64,000 bases of DNA, from the NCBI RefSeq assembly GCF_030345715.1, contig NZ_JAUASX010000001.1:620001-684000 (forward strand), in the 5' to 3' direction. Below the pieces are notes generated by a model. The model worked only from the letters and a program-made list of their open reading frames with translations. It was not told the origin of the DNA and ran no database searches. Positions 1,378-52,310 of this stretch are shown piece after piece. Each line of letters begins with the position of its first letter. Position 1 is the stretch's first letter. The translations under genes were made by a program, and so were the position numbers. Origin of the DNA: Solimonas sp. SE-A11. GTDB taxonomy: Bacteria > Pseudomonadota > Gammaproteobacteria > Nevskiales > Nevskiaceae.

Positions 1378-1477
1378 TTACTGATGCGCAGGATTTTATC
1401 TACTTCGGTTGGCAGGGGTCACCTATCGTTCACTCCAGCAGCGCAGCCCGCGACTGCATCGAATCCGGAGCAGAGCC

Positions 1478-2245
1478 ATGACCCAGCAGACTCAAACCAA
1501 CCTCTCCAACATCGCCGGCAAGGTGGTCGTCATCACCGGCGCCAGCAGCGGCCTGGGCGAGGCCACCGCCCGCCATCTCGCCGGCCTCGGCGCCAAGGTG
1601 GTGCTGGGCGCCCGCCGCGCCGGCCACCTGGAGCGCCTGGTTGCCGAAATCCGCGCGGCCGGCGGCGAGGCCATCGCCACTACCACCGACGTCACCGACC
1701 GCGACCAGGTCGAAACCCTGGTGGCGCGCGCCATCGACCAGTACGGCCGCATCGACGTGATGGTGAACAACGCCGGCTACATGGCGTTGGCCCCGATGGC
1801 GCGGCTCAAGGTCGAGGAGTGGGACCGCATGATCGACATCAACATCAAGGGCGTGCTCAACGGCGTGGCCGCCGCGTTGCCGCGCATGCAGGCCCAGGGC
1901 AGCGGCCACATCATCAACGTCGCCTCCGTCGCCGGCACCAAGGTGTTCAGTCCCATCGGCGCGGTCTACAGTGCCACCAAGTTCGCCGTGCGCGCCATCA
2001 GCGAGGGCCTGCGTGCCGAGGTCGGCAGTCGCATCCGCACCACCGTGATCTCGCCCGGTGCCGTGGCCAGCGAGCTTAAGCACGGCAGCAGCGACGCCGA
2101 ATCGGCCAAGGCCGTCGGCGAGTGGTACAGCGCCAACGAGATCCCGGCCGAGTCCGTGGCCCGCGCCATGGCCTTCGCCATCTCGCAGCCGCCCGAAGTG
2201 GACATCAACGAGATCCTGCTGCGGCCCACCGCGCAGGAATTCTGA
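1478..2245 (+). CDS. Short-chain dehydrogenase/reductase (classical SDR)
   Basis: This 255-residue classical SDR has the NAD(P)-binding TGASSGLG at 20-27, NNAG at 97-100, the catalytic Ser in NVAS at 150, and Tyr164/Lys168 in YSATK. ARR at 45-47 after the second strand suggests NADP(H) preference. The reading frame is open further upstream, but the ATG at 1478 is chosen because it gives the normal SDR length and follows GGAGCAGAG. The C-terminal stretch [11 protein letters not shown] matches YdfG-like/clavaldehyde-dehydrogenase-like SDRs. It is probably the target of the divergent LysR protein. The substrate is unknown. Confidence 0.93.
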
Positions 2246-2256
2246 GGCGCTTGCAT

Positions 2257-2293
2257 CCAGCAGTCCCAGCGGCGCGGCCGCCGGGACTGCTGG
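2257..2293. terminator. Bidirectional terminator-like hairpin
   Basis: The arms CCAGCAGTCCC (2257-2267) and GGGACTGCTGG (2283-2293) are perfectly complementary, with a GC-rich inner part that can pair further. The hairpin lies between the convergent SDR and TetR genes. There is no T-run on either side, so it could terminate in both directions or be a simple repeat. Confidence 0.6.
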
Positions 2294-2299
2294 TGGTTC

Positions 2300-3064
2300 T
2301 CACGCCTGCCTGGCGGGCATGGGGCCGGGCAGGGGCAGGCGTGCGATGCTTTCCGCCTCCTTCTGTGGGAGGCCCAGGATCGTCATGGCGGTGGTGGTGG
2401 CGCGCTCGGCGATGCCCTCCAGGTCCAGGCCCAGCTTCTTCAGTGGCATGGCCTGCGGGCCATGCAGGGAACTGGACTGTTGCTCGACGGCAATCGCGCC
2501 GAGCACCGTGCTGCCCACGGCGACGAAGCTCATCAGCAGGTCCGGGGCCTTGAAGCGTCCGGCCGCGACGCCACGCATGATGTCGCGCAGCAGGAACTGC
2601 CCCAGGCCGCGACTCAGCACGCGGGCCGAGAAGCCTTCGCGCAACAGGAATTTGCCCCACACCGGCTCGCGCCGCGCCCGCTGCAGAGCATGGCGCACGC
2701 TGAAGGCCACGGCCCTGGCCGGATCGTCCACGTCCTTGATCAGTGCGTCCAGCGCGCGGGCGAATTCCTCGAAGACACTGTCCATCAGTGCATCGTAGAT
2801 CGCTTCCTTGGACTCGAAGTGGTTGTAGAACGAGCCGAAGCCGACATCGGCGGCCTCGGTGATCTCGTTGATCGCCACGCCTTCCATGCCGCGTTCGGCC
2901 ATCAGGCGGAACGCGGCCTCCAGCAGTTTCCCCCGGGTTTCGCGCTTGCGCCGCGCACCGCGCGGCTCGCGCTCCGCAACCGTTGCCTTGGCAGCGGTCT
3001 TTGTCGCGGGCTTGGCGGGGCCGCGCGGGCGCCCGGGGCTTCGGGCGGCGGGGGACTTGGGCAT
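2300..3064 (-). CDS. TetR/AcrR-family transcriptional regulator
   Basis: This 254-residue protein has a TetR DNA-binding domain at about residues 40-90 (INEITEAADVGFGSFYNHFE, then SKEAIYDAL). It is preceded by an unusual 40-residue basic Ala/Pro/Lys-rich extension that may add DNA contacts. The ATG at 3064 is preferred over one 14 codons upstream because CTGGAG lies 6 bases ahead of it. The gene follows the DUF1302/monooxygenase/acyltransferase operon on the same strand, 126 bases downstream, so it may regulate that operon. The ligand is unknown. Confidence 0.92.
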   Translation of the reverse strand: MPKSPAARSPGRPRGPAKPATKTAAKATVAEREPRGARRKRETRGKLLEAAFRLMAERGMEGVAINEITEAADVGFGSFYNHFESKEAIYDALMDSVFEEFARALDALIKDVDDPARAVAFSVRHALQRARREPVWGKFLLREGFSARVLSRGLGQFLLRDIMRGVAAGRFKAPDLLMSFVAVGSTVLGAIAVEQQSSSLHGPQAMPLKKLGLDLEGIAERATTTAMTILGLPQKEAESIARLPLPGPMPARQA

Positions 3065-3110
3065 CGGGAACTCCAGGGGATTCGTCGAGGCATCATATTC
3101 GATCACAAAC

Positions 3111-3126
3111 CTGATGAAACAATCAG
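3111..3126. promoter_or_regulatory. Candidate TetR operator CTGAT-N6-ATCAG
   Basis: A perfect 5-bp inverted repeat with a 6-base AT-rich spacer lies 47 bases upstream of the TetR start, in the only AT-rich part of the gap. Size and location fit an autoregulatory TetR site, but there is no second copy to support it. Confidence 0.35.
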
Positions 3127-3190
3127 ATATATAAGCCTATTGCCAAGGGGCTCTCCGTCCTGGGAGCCCCGCAGGGTGATCCCGCCGGCA

Positions 3191-5719
3191 TCAGAACTGA
3201 TAGCGCGCGAAGAACTGCAGGTAGTCGCGGTCGCGCAGCAGGTTGTAGCGCCCGCCGCCGGTGAACCAGGTGTAGCCCACGGTGAACGACAGCGCGTCCT
3301 GGTAGCGCGTCTCCAACAGCAGGTCGGCCTGCTTGCGTCCCTCCACGAAGTTGCCGCCGGGGCCGGGCGAGGTGCCGCGCACATCCTGCGCCCAGAAGAT
3401 CGACGGCCGCAGGCTGATCGAGGGCAGCACGCTTTCGTAGCTGAGCATCCCGATCACGCGGTAGCCCCAGGAGAAGCCGTCGGCGAAGCCCGAGAGTTCC
3501 TCCTGGTGTGGATTGAAGCGGATGCCGTCGGCGCCATGGCTGCAGGCCGGGTTCAGCGAGCAGGCCTGGCGCGAGCCGTCCGCGCCGGAACCGTCCGCCC
3601 CGGCGCTGGCGTGGTAGTCGGTGCCCGGTGCTTCCAACTGGAGTTGGTCCAGTGCCGGCATGTCCGGTACCCAGGTCGCGCCCCATTCCGTGACCAGGAT
3701 GACCTGGTCGGCGCCGAAGGGATTGTCCTGCGGGCCGTAGACGCGTGTGGTGCCGAGATTGAACTGGTAGACGTCGAAGCGTTCGTAGCCGCGCAGGTAG
3801 CAGTCGATCCCCGGCCGGTAGTCCGCCGCGCTCATACCGGCCGCGCAGGGCGGGTTCTCACCCACCGCGCCGCCACGGTAGGCGGTGACGAAGCTGGGGA
3901 AGGCGCGCGCCGAACCCGGGACATGGCCGATGCCGACGTTGATCAAGTCCGGGTAGGGCGTGGCGCCGCCGGCATCGACGAAATCGCTGGAGCCGTAATT
4001 GGTGGCCTGACCGTCCTCGCCGTAGCCGATGCCCAGGTTTAGCAACTGTGCCGATCCGGCGCAGCCGAGCCTGCGGTCATGGCAACGCGTCAGAGTGGGG
4101 CCGAAGGCGGCAAAGGCCAGGTCCTGCAGGTCCACCTGCAGCGGCAGGTTGGGGCGGTAGGCCACCTCGCCCTGGATGGCGAACTCGCCCACGGTGGTGT
4201 TGAAGCTCAGGCCGATCAGGCGGATGTCCTCCGGGTATTCCAGCTGGAAGCGCGCGCTGTCCAGCGTCGCGGCGCTGTCGGTGGCCTGGCTGGCGGACTC
4301 GCCCGGATGCGTCAGCGCATGCAGGAAGGGGATGTCCGGACAAGCGGCGAGGAAGCTCACCAGGTCGCGTGCGTCGATGCCAAGCGGGTTGCCCTCGCGG
4401 CGCGCACAACTGGCCTGCGTCGCGTAGAAGCTGCCGATCGGCAGGCGTGAGTGGTAGTTCATGAAGTACGCGCCCAGCTCCACGCCGTTGCCCAGCGATT
4501 CCAGGTAGTACTTCAGCGCCACGCCGAACTGCCCGGCGTCGCGCGGCTCCGCGTCACGCAGGCGCTGGATCGTTGAGCTGGTGTTGCTCAGGCCCGTCAG
4601 CGGCGAGTCCAGCGGCACGGCGAGGCGCTCCGGGTCCTCGGCCACGCCGCCGGTGCTGGTGTTGACCGTATTCACGGCATTGCCGGTGCCGACGTCGAGC
4701 TCGGAGAAGTAGCTGCCGGGCGCATGAATCTCCACGTTTCGCCACTCCAGCTGGTAGAAAACCTCCACCGTGGTGTCGTCGAAAGGCTCGAAGCTGGCGA
4801 ACATCATCCCCACCGGCGTGAAGACCTCCTCCACCGTGCGGCCGATGCGGTAGAAGTTGTTGGCATTCACCGGATTGGCCTGGTTGAGGCTGTTCAGCGC
4901 CAGCGTCGTGCTTTCACCCCAGTTCACCACCTGCCGTCCCAGCTTCAGCGTCAGCCGCCGGTCGTCCCACAGCGGCAACTGCGTGAACAGCACCGCATCC
5001 AGCCATTGCAGGTCGCTGCCGATCTGCCGCAGCGTCTCGCCGTCGCTGCGGCGGTTGCGCACCACGCCGCCGGGTCCGTAGACCCGGCGCGTGCCGTCCT
5101 CCGCTGGCTGACCCCAGGGGCGGCTGGCGATCAGGCCGGTGAAGAGCGACACCGGGTTGGCCAGCAGCGTGGCCAGGTCCGGCGCCGGCAGCGGTGCCGA
5201 GGGCACCGTGCGGCCGACCTGTGCGGCATTGCCGGAGGTGATGCGGTTGGGGTGGTACTCGCGGAAATCGTCGTTGACCAGGTCATGGAAGAACAGCACG
5301 CGGCCGAAGAAGCCGAAGTCGCCGAAGCTTAGCGTCAGGTCGCTGGTCACCTTGAGCGGCGCCGCGAACAGTTCGCCGCGATCGTAGTTGAGGTTGCCGT
5401 CGTCGTTGTTGATCGACGCGGCGCCCGGCGCGGCCACCAGGCGCTGGGCGGGGTGGACCTGGTTGCGGAACAGCCCCTGGCAGCTCTGGTAGGCACCATT
5501 GGGGCCGGTGCAGACCTGTGGATCGAGATTGGCCTTGCCGACCAGGTCGCTGGACCGGTCCTGCATGCGCAGGCCCGCCCCGAGCGTGATGCTGGTGTTG
5601 AGCACCGCGTTGATCGCCTCGCCATCGCCGAGCGGCAGGTCGAAGCCCAGCGCGTATACCGACGGCGGCATCGTGAGCGCCGCCAGCAGCGGCAGGATAC
5701 GCAGGCCTGGGCGGATCAT
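3191..5719 (-). CDS. DUF1302-family outer-membrane protein
   Basis: This 842-residue exported protein has a signal peptide at about 1-23 (LRILPLLAALTMPPSVYAL). The DUF1302 hallmark follows: repeated amphipathic strands, NYDRGELFAAPLKVTSDL, GRQVVNWGEST near residue 260, and a C-terminal aromatic residue (FFARYQF) typical of beta-barrels. DUF1302 proteins are proposed outer-membrane proteins, often encoded beside lipid or steroid catabolic genes, possibly for uptake of hydrophobic substrates. Its ATG overlaps the stop of the upstream monooxygenase (ATGA), so the two are translationally coupled. No DUF1329 partner is in the window. It seems longer than most family members and has several Cys-containing loops. 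Confidence 0.88.
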   Translation of the reverse strand: MIRPGLRILPLLAALTMPPSVYALGFDLPLGDGEAINAVLNTSITLGAGLRMQDRSSDLVGKANLDPQVCTGPNGAYQSCQGLFRNQVHPAQRLVAAPGAASINNDDGNLNYDRGELFAAPLKVTSDLTLSFGDFGFFGRVLFFHDLVNDDFREYHPNRITSGNAAQVGRTVPSAPLPAPDLATLLANPVSLFTGLIASRPWGQPAEDGTRRVYGPGGVVRNRRSDGETLRQIGSDLQWLDAVLFTQLPLWDDRRLTLKLGRQVVNWGESTTLALNSLNQANPVNANNFYRIGRTVEEVFTPVGMMFASFEPFDDTTVEVFYQLEWRNVEIHAPGSYFSELDVGTGNAVNTVNTSTGGVAEDPERLAVPLDSPLTGLSNTSSTIQRLRDAEPRDAGQFGVALKYYLESLGNGVELGAYFMNYHSRLPIGSFYATQASCARREGNPLGIDARDLVSFLAACPDIPFLHALTHPGESASQATDSAATLDSARFQLEYPEDIRLIGLSFNTTVGEFAIQGEVAYRPNLPLQVDLQDLAFAAFGPTLTRCHDRRLGCAGSAQLLNLGIGYGEDGQATNYGSSDFVDAGGATPYPDLINVGIGHVPGSARAFPSFVTAYRGGAVGENPPCAAGMSAADYRPGIDCYLRGYERFDVYQFNLGTTRVYGPQDNPFGADQVILVTEWGATWVPDMPALDQLQLEAPGTDYHASAGADGSGADGSRQACSLNPACSHGADGIRFNPHQEELSGFADGFSWGYRVIGMLSYESVLPSISLRPSIFWAQDVRGTSPGPGGNFVEGRKQADLLLETRYQDALSFTVGYTWFTGGGRYNLLRDRDYLQFFARYQF

Positions 5720-7359
5720 GCCTGGGTGCTCCCCGTGTGATGCGCTTGCGGCAAGCCAGCCGGCGCCGGACCCTGCAGCAGCACCAGCGACTCGTCCACC
5801 AGGCGCGCGGCCTCGTCGGCGGGTCCGTCGTGCAGCACCACCCGGTCAGGGCGCAGTACCACCAGCCAGCCGAAGGGCGCAGCGCCGGGCAGCAGTGCGC
5901 CGGTGAGATCCTCGGCAGCATCGTCGCCGCGATGCAGCGACTGGCTGCGGTGGCAGATCTGCAGCATGCGTCCGCCGGCGGCAGTCCAGGCGCGACACCG
6001 CTGCTCATCGAGCTGGTGGTGCGGATGCAGGCCGAAACCCAGCAGTACCGGGCCGTCGCCGAGCAGGTCGTCGCTCAGTCGTATCCGTCCCTGGGCATCG
6101 CGCACCCAGCCCTGCGGCAACTGTCCGCCACGTGGCAGGCGTCCGCCACCGCGCGCGAACAGGCCCTTGTCGAAACGGTTCTTGGGCTTGATGCCGAGAT
6201 CGTCGAGCAGCCTGCGCAGCGGCGGCAGCAGGCGGATCAGCCGCACCGTGCCATGCGTCAGGATCGCCACCAGCGCATTGCGCGGCATCACCATGCGACC
6301 CATCAGCTTGGCCAGGCCAATCATGGCTCTGGCATGCGGGCGCCGCTCCTGGTCGTAGCTGTCGAGGATGGCGGGCGTCGCACGGCCCTGGACGACGGCG
6401 GCGAGTTTCCAGCAGAGGTTCGCGGCATCGCGCAGGCCCGCCACCAGCCCCTGCCCGACGAAGGGCGGCGTGATGTGCGCGGCATCGCCCGCCAGGAACA
6501 CGCGGCCGCGGCTGAAGCGCTCGCAGCAGCGCGCGTGGAAGCGGTATACCGCGCGCCGCTCGATCTTCATCTGGCCCGGCTCGCCCCAGGGCCGGAGCAG
6601 CTCGCCGATGCGCGCGTCGCTCTCCATCTGCTCGCGTGTCTCGCCCGGGGCCAGCATGAATTCCCAGCGCTCGCGCCGGCCGGGAGCCGGCATGTGCGGG
6701 ATCGGCCGCCGCGGATCGCAGATGAACTCGATGTGGTCGATTGGCCGGGGCACGTCGAGTGCGTCGACGATCAGCCAGTCCTCCGGATAGGTGGCTCCAC
6801 CAAAGTCCTGGCCGATGCTGCGGCGCACGAAGGACGCGGCACCGTCGGCACCCACCACGAACCCGGCCCGCAGGCGGCGCTCCACGCCGGAGGCGTCGCG
6901 CAGGCGGGCGGTCACGCCGCCGCCGTCGTCGACCAGTTCCAGCAGTTCCACGCCGCAGGCGGTCTGCACCATGGCCTGCGCGTCCACCAGGCGGCGCAGA
7001 GCCGCCTCCAGCGCCGGCTGGTAGAAGGTCACCAGCTTGGCGTGGCCGTCGATGGCGCCCGCGCTGTTCACCTGGCCGAACTGGCCGACGTAGGGCGAGT
7101 GCATGCGCACCTGCGGGATCGCCACGCGCTCGAAGGCCTGCTCGTCCAGCCCCACCATCTGCAGGATGCGCAGCGCCTCGTTGTCCAGGGCGATGGCGCG
7201 CGGCTGCGTGAGGATGTCCGGGGCCTTGTCGATGATCAGCGTGCGTACCCCGTAGCGTCCGAGCAGGCAGCCGATGGCGGCCCCCACCGGCCCGTAGCCG
7301 ACCACGAGTACGCAAACCTGCTCGGGCAGGTCCTGGAGGAGGGAAGGAGGATGGCTCAT
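5716..7359 (-). CDS. FAD-dependent aromatic hydroxylase, MhpA-like
   Basis: This 547-residue class A flavoprotein monooxygenase has the dinucleotide motif GYGPVG at 21-26, the NADPH/FAD motif GADGAASFVRRS from 170, and the FAD ribityl motif GDAAHITPP at 291-299. The C-terminal 150 residues resemble the thioredoxin-like tail of phenol and 3-(3-hydroxyphenyl)propionate hydroxylases. It should ortho-hydroxylate a phenol to a catechol using NAD(P)H and O2 in the cytoplasm. The frame is open back to 7566, but that part overlaps the acyltransferase and looks like shadow sequence, so MSHPP at 7359 is chosen despite a weak ribosome site. The divergent ring-cleavage dioxygenase suggests the catechol product is cleaved next. 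The exact substrate is inferred, not shown. Confidence 0.88.
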   Translation of the reverse strand: MSHPPSLLQDLPEQVCVLVVGYGPVGAAIGCLLGRYGVRTLIIDKAPDILTQPRAIALDNEALRILQMVGLDEQAFERVAIPQVRMHSPYVGQFGQVNSAGAIDGHAKLVTFYQPALEAALRRLVDAQAMVQTACGVELLELVDDGGGVTARLRDASGVERRLRAGFVVGADGAASFVRRSIGQDFGGATYPEDWLIVDALDVPRPIDHIEFICDPRRPIPHMPAPGRRERWEFMLAPGETREQMESDARIGELLRPWGEPGQMKIERRAVYRFHARCCERFSRGRVFLAGDAAHITPPFVGQGLVAGLRDAANLCWKLAAVVQGRATPAILDSYDQERRPHARAMIGLAKLMGRMVMPRNALVAILTHGTVRLIRLLPPLRRLLDDLGIKPKNRFDKGLFARGGGRLPRGGQLPQGWVRDAQGRIRLSDDLLGDGPVLLGFGLHPHHQLDEQRCRAWTAAGGRMLQICHRSQSLHRGDDAAEDLTGALLPGAAPFGWLVVLRPDRVVLHDGPADEAARLVDESLVLLQGPAPAGLPQAHHTGSTQA

Positions 7360-7390
7360 GGAGGGTCCGTGGTTGGAGCGGAAGGGGCCG

Positions 7391-8248
7391 TCAGACCTGC
7401 AGCGGCGCAAGCCAGCGCCGCAGCAGGCTCCAGCTTTGCTGGCGGTCTTCGCGGCGGTAGCGCAGCAGGCGCGAGATCTGTTGCTCGACGGCGCCGGCGA
7501 CCTGCTCGCGCAGTGCCCAGGCGGCGGCCGGATCGTCGTGAAGCCCGCGCAGCGACGTGGTGGCAATGCGCGGGCCGAAGCCGAAGTAGTAGCGCTGCGG
7601 CCGCGGCAGCAGGCTGGGCCCCAGGCCGCGCACCAGCGGCGGGATCATGTCGCCCCCGCGTGTCAGCGACTCCAGCGGCAATTGCCGCGACAGCCAGCGC
7701 CAGGCGCGCGAGTCCTGAACGTCGTTGGCGTCCAGCAGGATGCGGTAGCTCTCGTCAGGGCCGACCGAGCCGAACGGGATGATGTCGTAGCCGTGCTCGA
7801 TCGCCAGCCGCGCGAAGCCGCTGCGCCGCTTCCAGATCAGCCGATAGGCCTCGCCGCGCCGGCGCATCACCTCGCGGCCGCCGCCGGGGAACACCAGCAC
7901 GTGCTCGCCGGCGCGCATCAGCGCCGCACAGTTCTCCGGCGTGCCCAGCACCATGCCGTTGCGCGCCAGGAACTCGCCCCAGTACGGCACCTGGAAATGT
8001 CCGCGGTCGCCGAGGCCGCGGAGCATCACGCCGTACTGCGTGTAGAGGTGCTCGATCATCAGCGGCGCGTCGGTCAGGCCGAACAGCGTGTGGTTGCCGA
8101 CGAACAGCGCGGGGCGCCGCAGGTCCAGCTCCCACAAGCCGAGGAACTCCGGCAGGAACCAGCGGCGCGCCAGTGCGAAATAGCGCCGCATCTGCTGGGG
8201 AGAAGGCGGCGTGAACGGCGGCAGGACGGGCAGGGCGGGATCGTGCAT
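7391..8248 (-). CDS. Lysophospholipid acyltransferase-like protein (DGAT2/MGAT-like)
   Basis: This 285-residue protein has GNHTLFGLTDAP at 51-62, a variant acyltransferase motif with His53 and Asp60 farther apart than the usual H-x4-D. FPGGGREVMRRRGEAYRL starts at 120. The FPGGxRE block is characteristic of the monoacylglycerol-acyltransferase-like branch of LPLATs. It should move an acyl group from acyl-CoA onto a hydroxyl-bearing lipid at the membrane. It is the first gene of a three-gene operon with the monooxygenase (31 bases downstream) and DUF1302 protein. That is an unusual partner for an aromatic hydroxylase and hints at an acylated or lipidic substrate. The ATG at 8248 is the first in frame. 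Confidence 0.82.
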   Translation of the reverse strand: MHDPALPVLPPFTPPSPQQMRRYFALARRWFLPEFLGLWELDLRRPALFVGNHTLFGLTDAPLMIEHLYTQYGVMLRGLGDRGHFQVPYWGEFLARNGMVLGTPENCAALMRAGEHVLVFPGGGREVMRRRGEAYRLIWKRRSGFARLAIEHGYDIIPFGSVGPDESYRILLDANDVQDSRAWRWLSRQLPLESLTRGGDMIPPLVRGLGPSLLPRPQRYYFGFGPRIATTSLRGLHDDPAAAWALREQVAGAVEQQISRLLRYRREDRQQSWSLLRRWLAPLQV

Positions 8249-48507: not shown

Positions 48508-49074
48508 TCAAGGGTGTTTCGCGCGCTGCCACGGCGAGGGCGGCGTAGCTGCTTCTGGCTCCGCCGCCTGTGACGTCACCGGCATGGTGGGGCCCATCGC
48601 TGCGAGCTTGCGGGACAGACGGAAGGCATAGGACTCCACCACGCGCCAGTCCCAGTCGGAGACGGCGCCCAGTTCGGGGTAGCGCGCTTGGCGCGACAGT
48701 GCCCGCGTCTGCGAGTTGACGGCGATGCGGCACTGCAGCTTGCGTGGCTGCGTGAAGTAGAGGTGCAGGTGGATCAGCCCCCACCCCGTCAACGAGTGGC
48801 GGAAGGCGTGGCCTTCACGCGGTGGATCGAGGATCACCTTGCGCTCGATGGGGCGGCCCATCATCGAGGGATACCAGAAGCCGAAGGCGTAATCGTGCAG
48901 GCCGGCGGCGGCACATTGCGCGACCTTGGCGTGGATGTCGGCGGGCGTTGCGAAGTGCTGCAGCGCCTGGCCGAGATCGGACTCTGAGGAGGACACCTTC
49001 GGTGTCTCCTTCTGGAAGGCACTGGCGAGCAGTTCGCCCAAGTCCGCGTGGGTGATGAGGGTGGCAAGCGTCAC
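48508..49074 (-). CDS. Protein of unknown function
   Basis: This 188-residue soluble protein starts MTLATLITHADLGELLASAF. Its middle contains FGFWYPSMMGRPIERKVILD, GWGLIHLHLYFTQPRKLQCR and AVNSQTRALSRQARYPELGA with many aromatic residues, and it ends in a disordered Pro/Ala tail. No signal peptide or membrane span is present. I do not recognise the family. It is in the same direction as the lytic transglycosylase gene (88-base gap) and the TetR gene, without clear operon spacing. Confidence 0.75.
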   Translation of the reverse strand: MTLATLITHADLGELLASAFQKETPKVSSSESDLGQALQHFATPADIHAKVAQCAAAGLHDYAFGFWYPSMMGRPIERKVILDPPREGHAFRHSLTGWGLIHLHLYFTQPRKLQCRIAVNSQTRALSRQARYPELGAVSDWDWRVVESYAFRLSRKLAAMGPTMPVTSQAAEPEAATPPSPWQRAKHP

Positions 49075-49132: not shown

Positions 49133-49786
49133 TCATTCTCTCATTTTCGCCAGGCCCGGAGCCTCGTACAGCTGCCGCAGCACGGTTTCAACCAGGGCCT
49201 CCACGAGCCGCTCGCGCGACAGGTGATCCGGGCGGTGCAGGGCGATCTGCTGCATGGCGGTCCACACCATGCTGGTCAGCAGCCAGGCACTGGCCTCGGT
49301 GTCGTAGAGCCGCACCACGGCGGCGCTCTTGTCGCGGCCCTTGCGCACGATCTGTTCCAGGCTCTGCGAGAGTCCGCGCGCCTCCGGGATCTCGCCGAGG
49401 AAGGGCACCTCGCTCAGCGCCACGCGCAGCAGGCCGGCGCGGGCTTCCAGCGCGGCGATGATGGTGCGGATCCAGTGGTCGATGCCGGCACGCGGCTGGT
49501 CGGGCAGGGCCAGGGCCTCGTGCAGGCTGCGGCCGACCTCGGCGACGATCTCGCGCAGCGCCGCCGCCAGCGTGGCTGCGACGATCGACTGCTTGTTGGG
49601 GAAGTACTCGTACAGGGAGCCGACACCGACACCGGCCCGCTCGGCCACGCGGTTGGTGGTCACGGCGGCGTAGCCTTCTTCCTCCATAAGCCGAGCAGCG
49701 GCGTCGCAGAGAGCGTCCACGGTGGCCCGGGAGCGCGCCTGCTTGGGATGTTTTTTCAGTTGCAGATCAGTTGCTTGTCTCGCCAT
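49133..49786 (-). CDS. TetR-family transcriptional regulator
   Basis: This 217-residue TetR protein has an N-terminal HTH at about residues 20-65 (DALCDAAARLMEEEGYAAVT, NRVAERAGVGVGSLYEYFPN) and a C-terminal helical ligand domain of AcrR type. The ATG at 49786 has GGAGGGGG 5 bases ahead, so it is chosen over an upstream start. It is divergent from the multiheme lipoprotein gene, with a 16-bp palindrome between them. A repressor of that gene is the simplest reading. Confidence 0.93.
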   Translation of the reverse strand: MARQATDLQLKKHPKQARSRATVDALCDAAARLMEEEGYAAVTTNRVAERAGVGVGSLYEYFPNKQSIVAATLAAALREIVAEVGRSLHEALALPDQPRAGIDHWIRTIIAALEARAGLLRVALSEVPFLGEIPEARGLSQSLEQIVRKGRDKSAAVVRLYDTEASAWLLTSMVWTAMQQIALHRPDHLSRERLVEALVETVLRQLYEAPGLAKMRE

Positions 49787-49835
49787 CCCAACCCCCTCCG
49801 GACCGTCGGCCCCGGCACCCTCAATCCGAGTGGTT

Positions 49836-49851
49836 CCGAGCAATTACTCGG
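49836..49851. promoter_or_regulatory. TetR operator candidate CCGAG-CAATTA-CTCGG
   Basis: A 16-bp near-perfect palindrome, with 5-bp GC arms and an internal AATT that is itself symmetric, lies in the 106-base divergent gap, 50 bases from the TetR start and 42 from the cytochrome gene start. TTTATCTTA just downstream could be part of a -10 region. Length and symmetry are typical of TetR operators. Confidence 0.65.
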
Positions 49852-49892
49852 TTTATCTTAGCGGGACTATATCGCCGCCGTGGAGGAGAGCC

Positions 49893-52310
49893 ATGAGCCT
49901 GCGAAACCTGCGTACTCCGTTGTTCCTGTTTGCCGCCCTTGGCGGTGCCATCCTTTTGTCCGCCTGCGGCGAGTACGGCGGCCGCAGTGACCCTGCCACG
50001 GGTGGCGGTGTTACCGGCCCGCGCGACAGCGTGCAGGTGAAGAATTGCGATGAGCTTTTCACCAAGCGTGTGCAGCCGCGCCTGGAGTTCTGCCGCAGCT
50101 GCCATGTGCCGGGTGGCGTGGCGGACGTTGCCGATGGCAGGCTGTTCCAGCTCGACAAGGATGCAGCCCAGGATGCCCGGCTGCTGAAGGAATCCTGGCT
50201 GCGCCTGGGCGGCAATGGTGCCGGCAAGTCCCGCATCCTCAAGATGGCCTCCGGCACCGATACGCGCACGCACAGCGCTGGCGCGCCCTGGCCGGTGGGC
50301 AGCGACGCCTACCGCGAGATGGATGCACTGCTGCAGGGCTATGACAATCCCTCCGCCTGTGCGCTGGGCAATCTCGGCGCCATCACCGAATTCCCGCTGC
50401 TCGGCGGCCCGCGCGGCGGCGGCGCCTGGTCCAATTTCTGTGCGGGCAAGGCCGACAGCGCGGTGTTGCCGGTGGATCCGCGCACGCTGGTGGTGCCCGG
50501 CGTCAACGAGGGCAAGGCGGTGGCCTTCAACGCCTACTGGAAGTCCTGCGACAACGGCGTGCCGCGGCCCAAGACCTGTGGCGAGATGCGGGAGCAGTCC
50601 AAACTGGGCCTGTTCGTGGGCCATGGGCAGGGTGAGGTCGGCACGCCGCTGAGCTTTGCCGGCGGCAATGAGAATGTCAGCGGCCTGTCCGCCGAAAAAT
50701 ACAACCAGCTCTGGAAATCCGCCTGGGGCATGGACGAGCGGCCCAGCAACTTCGACGAGCTGGTGGCCGAGCGCTATGGCTCGCCGGCTAGCCTGGTGCC
50801 CAACCCCTATCCGCTGCCGGGCGAGGATCCCAACAAGACCAATGGCGGCTCCGGCAAGTTGCCCATGGTGTTCACGCAGATCCGCAAGGCCGATGGCACC
50901 TGGACCGGCGAGATCGGCCAGAAGGTCTGCCTGTTCTGCCACAACGGCCAGCTCGGTACCGTGGCCGACGGCGAGGGCATGGGGCCACAGCTCGGTGGTG
51001 CCGGCAGCATCGGCGACTTCGCCGTGGCCAGCTCGGACTTCAGCAAGGCGGAAGGACTCGCCGGCTTCGGCGCCAACTCCGCGCTGTCGCTGGTCACCAC
51101 CTCGACCAACCGCGGTACCGGCGCCATCGACTTCTTCCAGCTTGCCTTCATCCTGTTCAGCAACGGCGATCCCGCGCTGCTGCTCAATGACAAGATCGTG
51201 CTGAGCCAGGCCATCGGCAACATCAAGAGCCCGCCCTGGTGGAACCTGGCGTACCGTCCGCAGAAATTCCACGGCGCGGTGCTGCCCACCGATTCCTCGC
51301 GTATCGACCTGGCCGCGTACTACGACCTGGTGAAGAGCCTGAGCGGCGGTGGCGACGAGGCGCTGGCCTGGATGGATGCGCACTCGGGTCCCTTCCAGAC
51401 CTGGGCGGAGACACTGGCCTCGCCGAAGTTCCCCGGCGAGATCGACACGGCGCTGGCGGAGCAGGGCGCCATCCTGTTCCATTCCAAGAACCTCTGGGGC
51501 GATGGGCTCGACAATCCGGGACCGAAGCCGGACCAGGGCAATGGCTCCTGCGCGGGTTGCCACGGTGCCTATTCGCCACGCTACACCCACGACCCGGCCT
51601 ACCTCGACACGCCGGAGCTGGCGGGCATCGCGGCCTACACCGTGCCGACGGCGGTCGTCGGCACCGATCCGGTCTACGCCGACGCCATGCAGAGCCTGCG
51701 TAACCGCGACGGCAGCGTCAGCCCGGCGATCCTGAAACAGGCGGTGGTGTCGTGCGGGCTGGGCAATGCCGGCTCCACGGACGACCTGACGCCGATCTAC
51801 CTGGCTCCGCCGCTGTGGGGCACCTGGGCCGCCGCGCCCTACTTCCACAACGGTTCGGTGCCCAATATCTGGGGCGTACTGGACCCGCACAGCGAGCGCC
51901 CCAACATCTGGAAGCGCCGCTCCACGCCGGCCCGCGAGGATCAGGCGGGCAAGGTGGTGATGGGCTTCGACACCAACCTGCAGCGCGCCTACGACTTCGA
52001 CAAGCTCGGCTGGAAGTACGACGAGATTCCCTGCGGTGCCGCCGGCTCGCAGCCCTACATCGCCTGCAACCCGCTGAACCCCGAGGCGCCCTCGCCGGTG
52101 CAGGCGCTGCTGGGCGAAATCTACAAGCTGATCGGCCTGACCTGGAACCTGCCGCGGCCCGAGGGCCTGATGATGACGCAGCAGAACATCGAGAACCGCA
52201 AGGTGTTCAACACCAACCTCTACAGCCAGGGCAACCAGGGCCATGCGTTCACGTCGGTTCTGACCGACATGGAGCGCAAGGCGATCATCGAGTACCTGAA
52301 GACGCTCTGA
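49893..52310 (+). CDS. Multiheme c-type cytochrome lipoprotein, possibly RoxA/CCP-like
   Basis: This 805-residue protein has a type II signal (FAALGGAILLSACGEY) and three heme c sites: CRSCH near residue 67, CLFCH near 346 and CAGCH near 552. Segments such as NIKSPPWWNLAYRPQKFHG, PPLWGTWAAAPYFHNGSVP and IENRKVFNTN resemble the di-heme cytochrome c peroxidase/MauG fold, and overall it recalls the rubber oxygenases RoxA/RoxB (about 680 residues). The extra N-terminal heme and lipid anchor set it apart. It could be an outer-membrane oxygenase or peroxidase for a hydrophobic polymer. That is inference. GGAGGAGAG precedes the ATG at 49893. Confidence 0.82.
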   Translation: MSLRNLRTPLFLFAALGGAILLSACGEYGGRSDPATGGGVTGPRDSVQVKNCDELFTKRVQPRLEFCRSCHVPGGVADVADGRLFQLDKDAAQDARLLKESWLRLGGNGAGKSRILKMASGTDTRTHSAGAPWPVGSDAYREMDALLQGYDNPSACALGNLGAITEFPLLGGPRGGGAWSNFCAGKADSAVLPVDPRTLVVPGVNEGKAVAFNAYWKSCDNGVPRPKTCGEMREQSKLGLFVGHGQGEVGTPLSFAGGNENVSGLSAEKYNQLWKSAWGMDERPSNFDELVAERYGSPASLVPNPYPLPGEDPNKTNGGSGKLPMVFTQIRKADGTWTGEIGQKVCLFCHNGQLGTVADGEGMGPQLGGAGSIGDFAVASSDFSKAEGLAGFGANSALSLVTTSTNRGTGAIDFFQLAFILFSNGDPALLLNDKIVLSQAIGNIKSPPWWNLAYRPQKFHGAVLPTDSSRIDLAAYYDLVKSLSGGGDEALAWMDAHSGPFQTWAETLASPKFPGEIDTALAEQGAILFHSKNLWGDGLDNPGPKPDQGNGSCAGCHGAYSPRYTHDPAYLDTPELAGIAAYTVPTAVVGTDPVYADAMQSLRNRDGSVSPAILKQAVVSCGLGNAGSTDDLTPIYLAPPLWGTWAAAPYFHNGSVPNIWGVLDPHSERPNIWKRRSTPAREDQAGKVVMGFDTNLQRAYDFDKLGWKYDEIPCGAAGSQPYIACNPLNPEAPSPVQALLGEIYKLIGLTWNLPRPEGLMMTQQNIENRKVFNTNLYSQGNQGHAFTSVLTDMERKAIIEYLKTL

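Follow-up and report, generated by a model that had tools for sequence, protein, structure and literature searches.

Does the three-heme lipoprotein encoded divergently from a TetR-family gene in Solimonas sp. SE-A11 cleave rubber, and is its architecture a new one? A sequence-only reading of the 64,000-nucleotide stretch of DNA that holds the locus (the window) had described an 805-residue lipoprotein with three CxxCH motifs and RoxA-like segments, and had proposed it as a possible new rubber-oxygenase-like enzyme. The protein itself is as described, with CxxCH at residues 67, 346 and 553 and the lipobox LSAC ending in Cys25, and the divergent TetR gene is likewise present.

Architecture of the Rox lipoprotein

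The rox coding sequence starts with an ATG preceded by a GGAGGAG Shine-Dalgarno sequence, and the mature lipoprotein has a computed pI of 5.39. The features of the locus are as follows.

49133..49786, minus strand: gene for a TetR-family repressor of 217 aa, facing away from rox (Pfam TetR_N, 62.7 bits)
49826..49851, no strand: probable TetR operator CCGAGTGGTTCCGAGCAATTACTCGG, with three CCGAG/CTCGG half-sites, including the palindrome at 49836-49851 (conservation)
49893..52310, plus strand: three-heme Rox lipoprotein, 805 aa, of the HA clade (with His for RoxA W302 and Ala for RoxA F317)
49956..49967, plus strand: lipobox LSA-C25, with Cys25 as the lipid attachment site and Gly at +2 (sequence motif)
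50091..50105, plus strand: CRSCH 67-71, N-terminal third heme motif (motif and alignment)
50271..50273, plus strand: His127, which probably serves the third heme as its second axial ligand (alignment; Fontimonas RoxC parallel)
50928..50942, plus strand: CLFCH 346-350, catalytic-type heme motif, equivalent to RoxA CSACH195 (alignment)
51270..51272, plus strand: His460, aligned with Trp302, the inter-heme bridge in RoxA (alignment, profile matches)
51315..51317, plus strand: Ala475, aligned with Phe317, which stabilises O2 in RoxA (alignment, profile matches)
51549..51563, plus strand: CAGCH 553-557, second core heme motif, equivalent to RoxA CASCH394 (motif and alignment)
51837..51863, plus strand: MauG-type motif PYFH652NGSVP, residues 649-657 (motif and alignment)
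52242..52244, plus strand: His784, equivalent to RoxA H641, an axial ligand to the C-terminal heme (alignment)

Judged by its sequence, the product is a three-heme c-type cytochrome of the RoxA/RoxB/RoxC superfamily, in which an N-terminal one-heme domain (His71, His127) precedes a RoxA-fold di-heme core. Membership in the superfamily is indicated by a PF21419 score of 63.2 bits (cut-off 26.7), the conserved axial His residues and the MauG-type motif. The RoxA-like segments are confirmed by a PDB sequence search, where RoxA (4b2n) is the sole match up to E=1, at E=1e-96, and by the core fold, which superimposes on 4b2n with a VIA Z of 33.1 and an rmsd of 2.8 over 569 residues. After RoxA, the best VIA folds are bacterial cytochrome c peroxidases (CCP), at Z about 12; the CCP and MauG proteins share part of the core fold (Z about 9-12), but they are about half the size, with 15-23% identity over about 225-255 residues.

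Regarding the third heme, His127 is invariant in the 50 three-heme rows of our alignment, and in the RoxC of Fontimonas the third haem is ligated by H44/H98 (PMC10837239). Searches with this domain gave no family in Pfam (one chance ABC_tran match, E 0.12), 0 matches in the PDB by Foldseek, no match among the 4 chains compared by VIA and no convincing match in the PDB by sequence; this lack of matches is no evidence of a new fold. In a search of plasmids, 4 records matched in part, at 28-32% identity.

The architecture had been taken as new, and this does not hold, since three-heme lipoproteins were already described as RoxC by Prakash et al. 2024 (PMC10837239), where a substantial number of these lipoproteins carry a third N-terminal heme. 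The RoxC proteins of Fontimonas thermophila and Oceanococcus atlanticus resemble the present one in the lipoprotein signal with a Cys after the cleavage site, the acidic pI, the change of F317 to Ala and the RoxA-type core, and the third heme is common with the Fontimonas protein, whereas the Oceanococcus protein has none (PMC10837239). However, RoxC has Phe at the W302 position, where His460 is found here, so that of the RoxC pocket signature only the Ala agrees. Moreover, the NCBIfam RoxC model (NF051462) gives 753.1 bits, under its cut-off of 900, and the protein does not group with classical RoxC. The lipoprotein is predicted to be directed to the outer membrane, where it may be exposed at the surface.

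A clade with its own pocket signature

The RoxA active-site residues, whose absence was the condition under which the earlier proposal was to be dropped, are lost in part. The alignment retains the equivalents of the ligand and motif histidines H195, H394, H517 and H641 as well as F301, whereas W302 and F317 are replaced by H460 and A475. In RoxA the F317 variants, F317A included, have no bound O2 and their polyisoprene cleavage is drastically reduced or abolished (PMC6797691), and W302 is named as the inter-heme bridge (PMC4496055). Because of these two replacements, a ferric resting state with no bound O2 would be expected, with poor or no cleavage of polyisoprene, and rubber dioxygenation appears unlikely although the NCBIfam models score the protein as RoxB. 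Asp413, a clade-specific polar residue near the pocket, was set aside as its alignment to RoxA is ambiguous (G253 by phmmer, I252 by MAFFT) and its surroundings, residues 392-413, have a pLDDT <50; this stretch includes the positions equivalent to the pocket residues A251/I252.

The RoxB model (NF050034) is the one whose cut-off is passed, with 912.6 bits against 900, whereas the RoxA model (NF050033) gives 434.2 bits against 1000. RoxB from S. cummioxidans 35Y is thus the closest by score, and RoxB rows fall in the same larger clade of the tree. Nonetheless, RoxB has two hemes, a Sec non-lipoprotein signal and the Val294/Phe309 pair, in contrast to the three hemes, the lipobox and the His/Ala pair found here. 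Also, several lipoproteins outside the RoxB clade pass the RoxB cut-off or narrowly miss it, and therefore this cut-off does not separate function.

For the phylogeny, 80 non-identical rox ORFs were found by a motif filter that is not exhaustive (it missed the frames L008:5758-7842 and L019:5718-7787, and L036 yielded none); removal of 8 fragments or duplicates and addition of three proteins from the same genome and RoxA gave a 76-row alignment. The larger tree has 74 rows (L023_609p and L025_2347p omitted) and the smaller 54 (22 near-duplicates and long branches omitted). The only RoxA row is PDB 4b2n, a long branch, because a class-wide RoxA search placed 0 of 369 genomes above the cut-off. 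In these trees the Rox protein sits in a separate clade with full support, distinct from both classical RoxC and the RoxB rows and here called the HA clade; its support remains 100/100 when both signature columns (W302, F317) are masked. In the phylogeny, which had been suggested as a check, a union of the HA clade with classical RoxC is rejected (p-AU 0.0088), whereas a union with the RoxB rows is not (p-AU 0.113). The protein falls outside the V/F (RoxB) clade in both trees, whose RoxB rows were assigned from HMM scores and the V/F signature, the 35Y sequence being absent.

A profile search finds 17 matches of at least 937 bits, the next best being 724; 12 of them re-find known rows and 5 are new sequences. 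K344, H460 and Y595 occur in all 17, and A475 in 16, with Glu in L094. Six HA-clade members are full-length two-heme proteins, so the third heme would not be essential to the role of the clade. Taking the CxxCH motif count as the heme number, there are 10 heme-number changes on the tree, or 9 without L010_1p, which is cut by the contig end yet labelled two-heme in both trees, and L038_7728p; in L025, CRTCP replaces the first heme motif.

What remains of the rubber proposal is a lipid-anchored oxygenase of RoxB type with one heme more, which would cleave polyisoprene at the cell surface. Besides the RoxB score and a union with RoxB that the AU test does not reject, an lcp gene in S. fluminis of the same genus (PMC10837239) and three MPAB_Lcp_cat matches in the own genome speak for it. 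Also, clearing-zone formation is listed for strains with RoxA F317Y, F317L and F317A in the strain table of PMC6797691, which indicates that loss of Phe317 need not fully abolish rubber attack. Against this stand the Ala at the Phe317 equivalent, the His at the Trp302/Val294 equivalent, the drastically reduced or abolished activity of the RoxA F317 variants and the poor discrimination of the RoxB cut-off. We consider this RoxB-type reading improbable, and rubber oxygenase was rejected as the leading function on the changes at A475 and H460; that the Rox protein is not a rubber oxygenase is held with fair confidence, lowered on account of the clearing zones listed for the F317A strains.

The TetR gene and its probable operator

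The TetR protein is 59% identical (blastp) to the one divergent from a RoxC paralogue in the same genome. Within 1 kb of rox, a TetR gene was found in 29 of 55 non-RoxB-like operons and in 1 of 7 RoxB-like ones (two TetR queries), counts which include near-orthologues and the overlapping loci L018/L029 and err on the low side, since an operon can be broken up by a rox frame that was missed.

The 16-bp palindrome CCGAGCAATTACTCGG at 49836-49851, to which the earlier reading had drawn attention, is present and self-complementary at 14 of 16 positions. By itself it was rejected as support, since its CCGAG-N6-CTCGG core is expected 0.33 times in the window and occurs at least once in 30 of 100 shuffles. 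However, the palindrome is part of a larger box of 26-27 bp, which is present in 12/12 rox operons that have a TetR of this type and in 0/53 others, the same near-orthologues and overlapping loci being counted. The own genome has two copies of the extended box, each upstream of a rox gene, against 0 for the reversed pattern used as a control. The conservation of the extended box is the reason to take the palindrome as biologically real, and the box between TetR and rox is probably the TetR operator.

Function and meaning of the HA clade

Some indications on the substrate come from other HA-clade members, as no acyl-CoA or DUF1302/1329 gene was seen at the window locus, and thus the metabolic context is borrowed. 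Among the 14 HA-clade loci with some surroundings, DUF1302 and DUF1329 are HMM-confirmed within about 7 kb in three (L009, L116, L117) and acyl-CoA ligases lie near rox in three (L116, L117, L119); in L116 both kinds of gene face rox in convergent orientation and are not part of its operon. None of these genes was seen in L007, in L114 (judged by protein starts) or in the scanned part of L118. Several neighbours, namely the ArsR-like gene in L114, those in L115 and some of the acyl-CoA dehydrogenases, got their names from visual inspection of protein starts. AmeA/AmeB (DUF1302/DUF1329) act in monoterpene metabolism (PMC6394551), and such neighbours of several clade members suggest the oxidation of a small apolar unsaturated lipid or isoprenoid; the DUF1302/DUF1329 context was considered as proof of the substrate and kept as a hint. 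RoxA-related di-heme enzymes outside rubber degradation are known: PA2077 from P. aeruginosa, a RoxA relative, dioxygenates oleic acid and PA2078, with Ser in place of the bridging Trp, turns the hydroperoxide into a diol (PMC4496055). Compared by description alone, these differ from the present protein in that the passages describing them mention no third heme domain.

A different chemistry would be that of a CCP/MauG-like peroxidase that shields the envelope: H2O2 or lipid hydroperoxides would be reduced at the core hemes, and the third heme would supply the electrons. Folds of this kind rank next after RoxA, and the alignment puts a His in the inter-heme region, as opposed to the RoxA pocket, which is described as exclusively hydrophobic (PMC6797691). 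A redoxin-family gene lies directly 3' of Q/F- and F/F-type rox genes in L022, with its cluster in 5 loci, and the layout is like that of YhjA, whose structure 9qdt is among the VIA fold matches. E. coli YhjA has an N-terminal third electron-transfer heme. Nevertheless, the large RoxA-type core is retained over 569 aligned residues, and the HA-clade neighbours, many judged by protein starts, are mostly catabolic with no oxidative-stress gene seen, which leaves the peroxidase unlikely, though worth keeping in mind. Another option, a lipoprotein for electron transfer whose Rox core is degenerate and non-catalytic, would fit the loss of F317 and W302 and the fact that the two RoxC lipoproteins with F317 changed to Ala that have been assayed show no rubber activity (unpublished data cited in PMC10837239). 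But the core ligands and clade-specific residues are strongly conserved across genera and the six two-heme members have no relay domain, which favours a catalytic role and makes the non-catalytic option very improbable.

The explanation that we favour, with about even confidence for it as a whole, is a TetR-controlled HA-clade lipoprotein that oxidises a small unsaturated apolar molecule. TetR would repress rox and release the box when the apolar substrate or its acyl-CoA product binds; the His350 heme of the lipoprotein would be the site at which an isoprenoid or a fatty acid is oxidised, the third heme would link the core to a periplasmic partner as an electron carrier, and the product fragment would enter CoA activation and beta-oxidation. 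More speculatively, and rather doubtful in our view, a separate branch of the superfamily may have swapped the hydrophobic O2 pocket and the Trp bridge for His/Ala, giving an oxidase or peroxygenase that sits in the outer membrane, is fed with electrons and acts on small isoprenoids or unsaturated lipids, with the third bis-His heme wired to the respiratory chain and its own TetR switch; as part of this, the close paralogue of the TetR may control the RoxC gene of the same genome via the same kind of operator.

With 243 of 458 sequences, RoxC outnumbers every other Rox group, and its function is stated as unknown (PMC10837239). With the architecture already known, what is new here is a clade set apart by its own His/Ala pocket signature, together with its conserved TetR operator. 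An automatic RoxB score does not imply a rubber-type pocket, which calls for caution before such genes from genomes or metagenomes are counted towards rubber degradation. Finally, the regulator-operator pair offers a handle to find the inducer and, through the inducer, the substrate, making the function of RoxC testable.

Rox-type core and the additional N-terminal domain

The 64-kb window belongs to contig C1 of a 4.94-Mb genome, and its rox locus comprises the following features.

49893-52310 (+): rox gene, encoding 805 residues with three CxxCH motifs, a MauG-type motif and a lipobox
49133-49786 (-): TetR gene, divergent from the rox gene
49826-49851: probable TetR operator, containing a 16-bp palindrome (49836-49851)
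48508-49074 (-): gene for a 188-residue protein without Pfam match, just downstream of the TetR gene, possibly in one operon with it; kept in loci L006 and L007

Inspection of genes and motifs agrees with the sequence-only reading in the coordinates and in the description of a three-heme lipoprotein gene with a divergent TetR. The rox product of Solimonas sp. BWSM_106 shares 97% identity with this protein, and that of S. fluminis HR-BB 88%. It matches Pfam RoxA-like_Cyt-c (63.2 bits) and scores above the cut-off for NCBIfam RoxB (912.6; cut-off 900) and below it for RoxC (753.1; 900) and RoxA (434.2; 1000). Several lipoproteins outside the RoxB clade pass or narrowly miss the cut-off of 900 of NF050034 (RoxB), so automatic names such as 'rubber dioxygenase RoxB' may be wrong for them. 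A PDB sequence search returned RoxA (4b2n) as sole match (E=1e-96), and the AlphaFold2 model (pLDDT 79.2, pTM 0.87) superimposes on RoxA with a Z of 33.1 over 569 residues (model range 166-805), the next-best folds being cytochrome c peroxidases and MauG (Z about 9-12). The protein is thus almost certainly a member of the Rox superfamily.

The lipobox carries Gly at +2, which by the established sorting rule directs lipoproteins to the outer membrane, and this location is therefore predicted for the window protein. The N-terminal ~165 residues form the extra domain, for which Pfam and PDB searches gave no match at the thresholds applied. His127 is invariant in 50/50 rows with three CxxCH motifs, in addition to the motif residues by which these rows were selected. 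Because the third haem of the Fontimonas RoxC is listed with ligands H44/H98 (PMC10837239, Table 1), His71/His127 would be the probable axial pair here. The third heme of the window protein, with presumed bis-His ligation, may well act as an electron relay.

The sequence-only reading had considered this architecture possibly new. However, the available text of PMC10837239 describes RoxC as mostly lipoproteins, acidic, with F317 and W302 replaced and with a third N-terminal haem in a substantial number of members, so that three-heme Rox lipoproteins were already on record. The same text cites, as unpublished data, two RoxC members without rubber activity, and states the RoxC function as unknown.

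Active site and the His/Ala clade

Concordant phmmer and MAFFT alignments map RoxA F301, W302, A316 and F317 to F459, H460, A474 and A475 of the window protein, and H195, H394, H517 and H641 to H350, H557, H652 and H784. Hence, of the RoxA active-site residues, F301 and the four histidines are kept, whereas W302 and F317 are absent, replaced by His and Ala. In RoxA, W302 is described as the inter-heme electron bridge (PMC4496055, as available), and heme-bound O2 is held by F317 and F301, acid-base catalysts being absent (PMC6797691, as available). The latter text reports drastically reduced or abolished polyisoprene cleavage for F317 variants (A, L, Y, W, H) and a deoxygenated heme in those characterised, although clearing zones are still tabulated for F317Y, F317L and F317A strains. 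The earlier suggestion of a rubber-oxygenase-like enzyme stands for the RoxA-type core, but with F317 and W302 replaced rubber cleavage is unlikely, and we consider that the window protein is probably not a rubber oxygenase.

Grouped by what stands at RoxA positions W302 and F317, the rows separate into RoxA (W/F), RoxB (V/F), classical RoxC (F/A) and the window type (H/A); further rows are Q/F, F/F, Y/F, W/F or W/I, besides a few single types. The 13 H/A rows form one clade (support 100), recovered with these two columns masked (11 rows, 100/100). The phylogeny, proposed as a check in the sequence-only reading, places the window protein in a separate clade; an AU test rejects joining this clade with classical RoxC (p-AU 0.0088) but does not reject joining it with RoxB (p-AU 0.113). 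Six H/A rows have three hemes, six are full-length with two, and the remaining row, L010_1p, is truncated at a contig end; every other row carries a lipobox-like signal. Over the 54-row tree, heme number requires 10 changes, or 9 without two doubtful rows (L010_1p, L038_7728p).

In a new search with a profile of this clade, covering 85 genomes of the order, 17 hits reached at least 937 bits, and the next scored 724. Twelve were already known rows and five were new sequences, with identities of 0.66-0.86 to the nearest known row. K344, H460 and Y595 are present in 5/5 of these and A475 in 4/5 (Glu in L094); Phe at the A475 position occurs in 0/5.

TetR and its probable operator

A scan of 21 genomes located the pattern CCGAGTNGTNCC(N)GAGN6CTCGG at 7 sites, which lie only in the four genus members and all directly upstream of a rox gene; the reversed-pattern control gave 0. 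Among 65 rox operons with room upstream, a box departing from the pattern at no more than 2 of its 18 fixed positions is found in 12/12 with the window TetR type, 0/17 with the other TetR type and 0/36 with neither. The window and L003, a paralogue of the same genome, served to define the pattern. Since four further loci are close orthologues of these two (L006, L007, L019, L025) and L064 is a more distant orthologue from the same genus, the fair test lies in the five operons from other genera (L016, L017, L022, L047, L048), with 0-2 mismatches. The operator is very probably real. L003, on contig C5, repeats the window layout, with a related box and a divergent TetR 59% identical to that of the window.

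In genus member G003, a perfect box (G003:C1:693585-693610) precedes the HA rox gene of L114, beside which tblastn in L114 found no TetR homologue, and a full-length TetR match lies at L064; the natural reading is that this box would be controlled in trans. By eye, L114 holds a short TetR remnant, and a gene of ArsR-like look (from its protein start) is now divergent from rox. Also, a second TetR family, as upstream of paralogue L002, is divergent from rox genes in 17 operons of several genera, without this operator.

Neighbourhoods, paralogues and proposed function

Some flanking sequence is available for fourteen HA-clade loci (window, L006-L010, L013, L026, L114-L119), L006 being outside the gene-by-gene listing. 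DUF1302 and DUF1329 genes are HMM-confirmed near the HA gene in L009, L116 and L117, after rox on the same strand in L117 and convergent in L116; L009 also has an AraC regulator and an alpha/beta hydrolase. Acyl-CoA ligases occur in L116, L117 and L119, a confirmed acyl-CoA dehydrogenase in L116 and a P450 gene in L026. DUF or acyl-CoA neighbours of this kind were not seen in L007, L118, the window locus or, judged by protein starts, L114. L008 shares the DUF1302 cluster of L009, and L115 (G003) resembles L009 by protein starts. One monoterpene degrader grew less well on limonene and myrcene after an insertion in ameB; its AmeA/AmeB are DUF1302/DUF1329 proteins (PMC6394551, as available).

Other rox and related genes include the following.

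G000:C20, protein 1447-3792 (L002): full-length three-heme F/F paralogue of the window genome, Phe kept at the F317 position (F454), RoxB score 903.8, above cut-off
G000:C5 (L003): full-length three-heme F/A paralogue, RoxC 1333.7 bits
L005:1483-1797 (G000:C12): 104-residue open frame whose match to Rox is confined to the C-terminal 99 residues of the latter; it is probably what remains of a fourth copy
L008:3384-5765, L009:5468-7846, L085 (row L085_1) / L115:5926-8304: three-heme Rox lipoproteins with W at 302 and F at 317
G000:C23:287934, C39:160535, C14:17946: MPAB_Lcp_cat (latex clearing protein family) hits, best 196 bits
L022:12787-13284: redoxin/AhpC-TSA-family gene that comes immediately after rox genes of types other than H/A and is itself followed by a DUF3570 gene

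With Phe at the F317 position and a RoxB score above the cut-off, the L002 protein is more likely than the window protein to be an O2-binding oxygenase, and the W/F proteins indicate that not all Rox lipoproteins lack the RoxA-type residues. The W/F gene is directly followed by a two-heme HA-clade gene in L009 and L115; in L008 another two-heme rox frame (5758-7842) separates the two. The RoxC-type protein of the BWSM_106 MAG (L025:2404-4866) may have lost its third heme, since its first motif reads CRTCP, not CRTCH. Paralogues are strongly expanded in the genus, with 10, 9 and 17 matches in G001, G002 and G003 against 3 here, many in tandem. The cluster of the L022 redoxin gene is present in 5 loci, and its position after rox genes may connect them with peroxide or thiol redox chemistry.

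The function with most support is that the protein oxidises, at the envelope, a small unsaturated molecule of apolar character, a lipid or an isoprenoid, and that a TetR sensing this substrate controls the gene; the odds on the substrate class are about even. PA2077, a RoxA relative, dioxygenates oleic acid, and PA2078, which like the window protein has no bridging Trp, converts the resulting hydroperoxide (PMC4496055, as available). A literature search found no mention of rox genes having a TetR regulator or an operator, and none of a His/Ala Rox clade. For the specialist the surprise is not the three-heme Rox lipoprotein itself; a distinct H/A clade together with a clean TetR-operator pair makes the open RoxC question testable.
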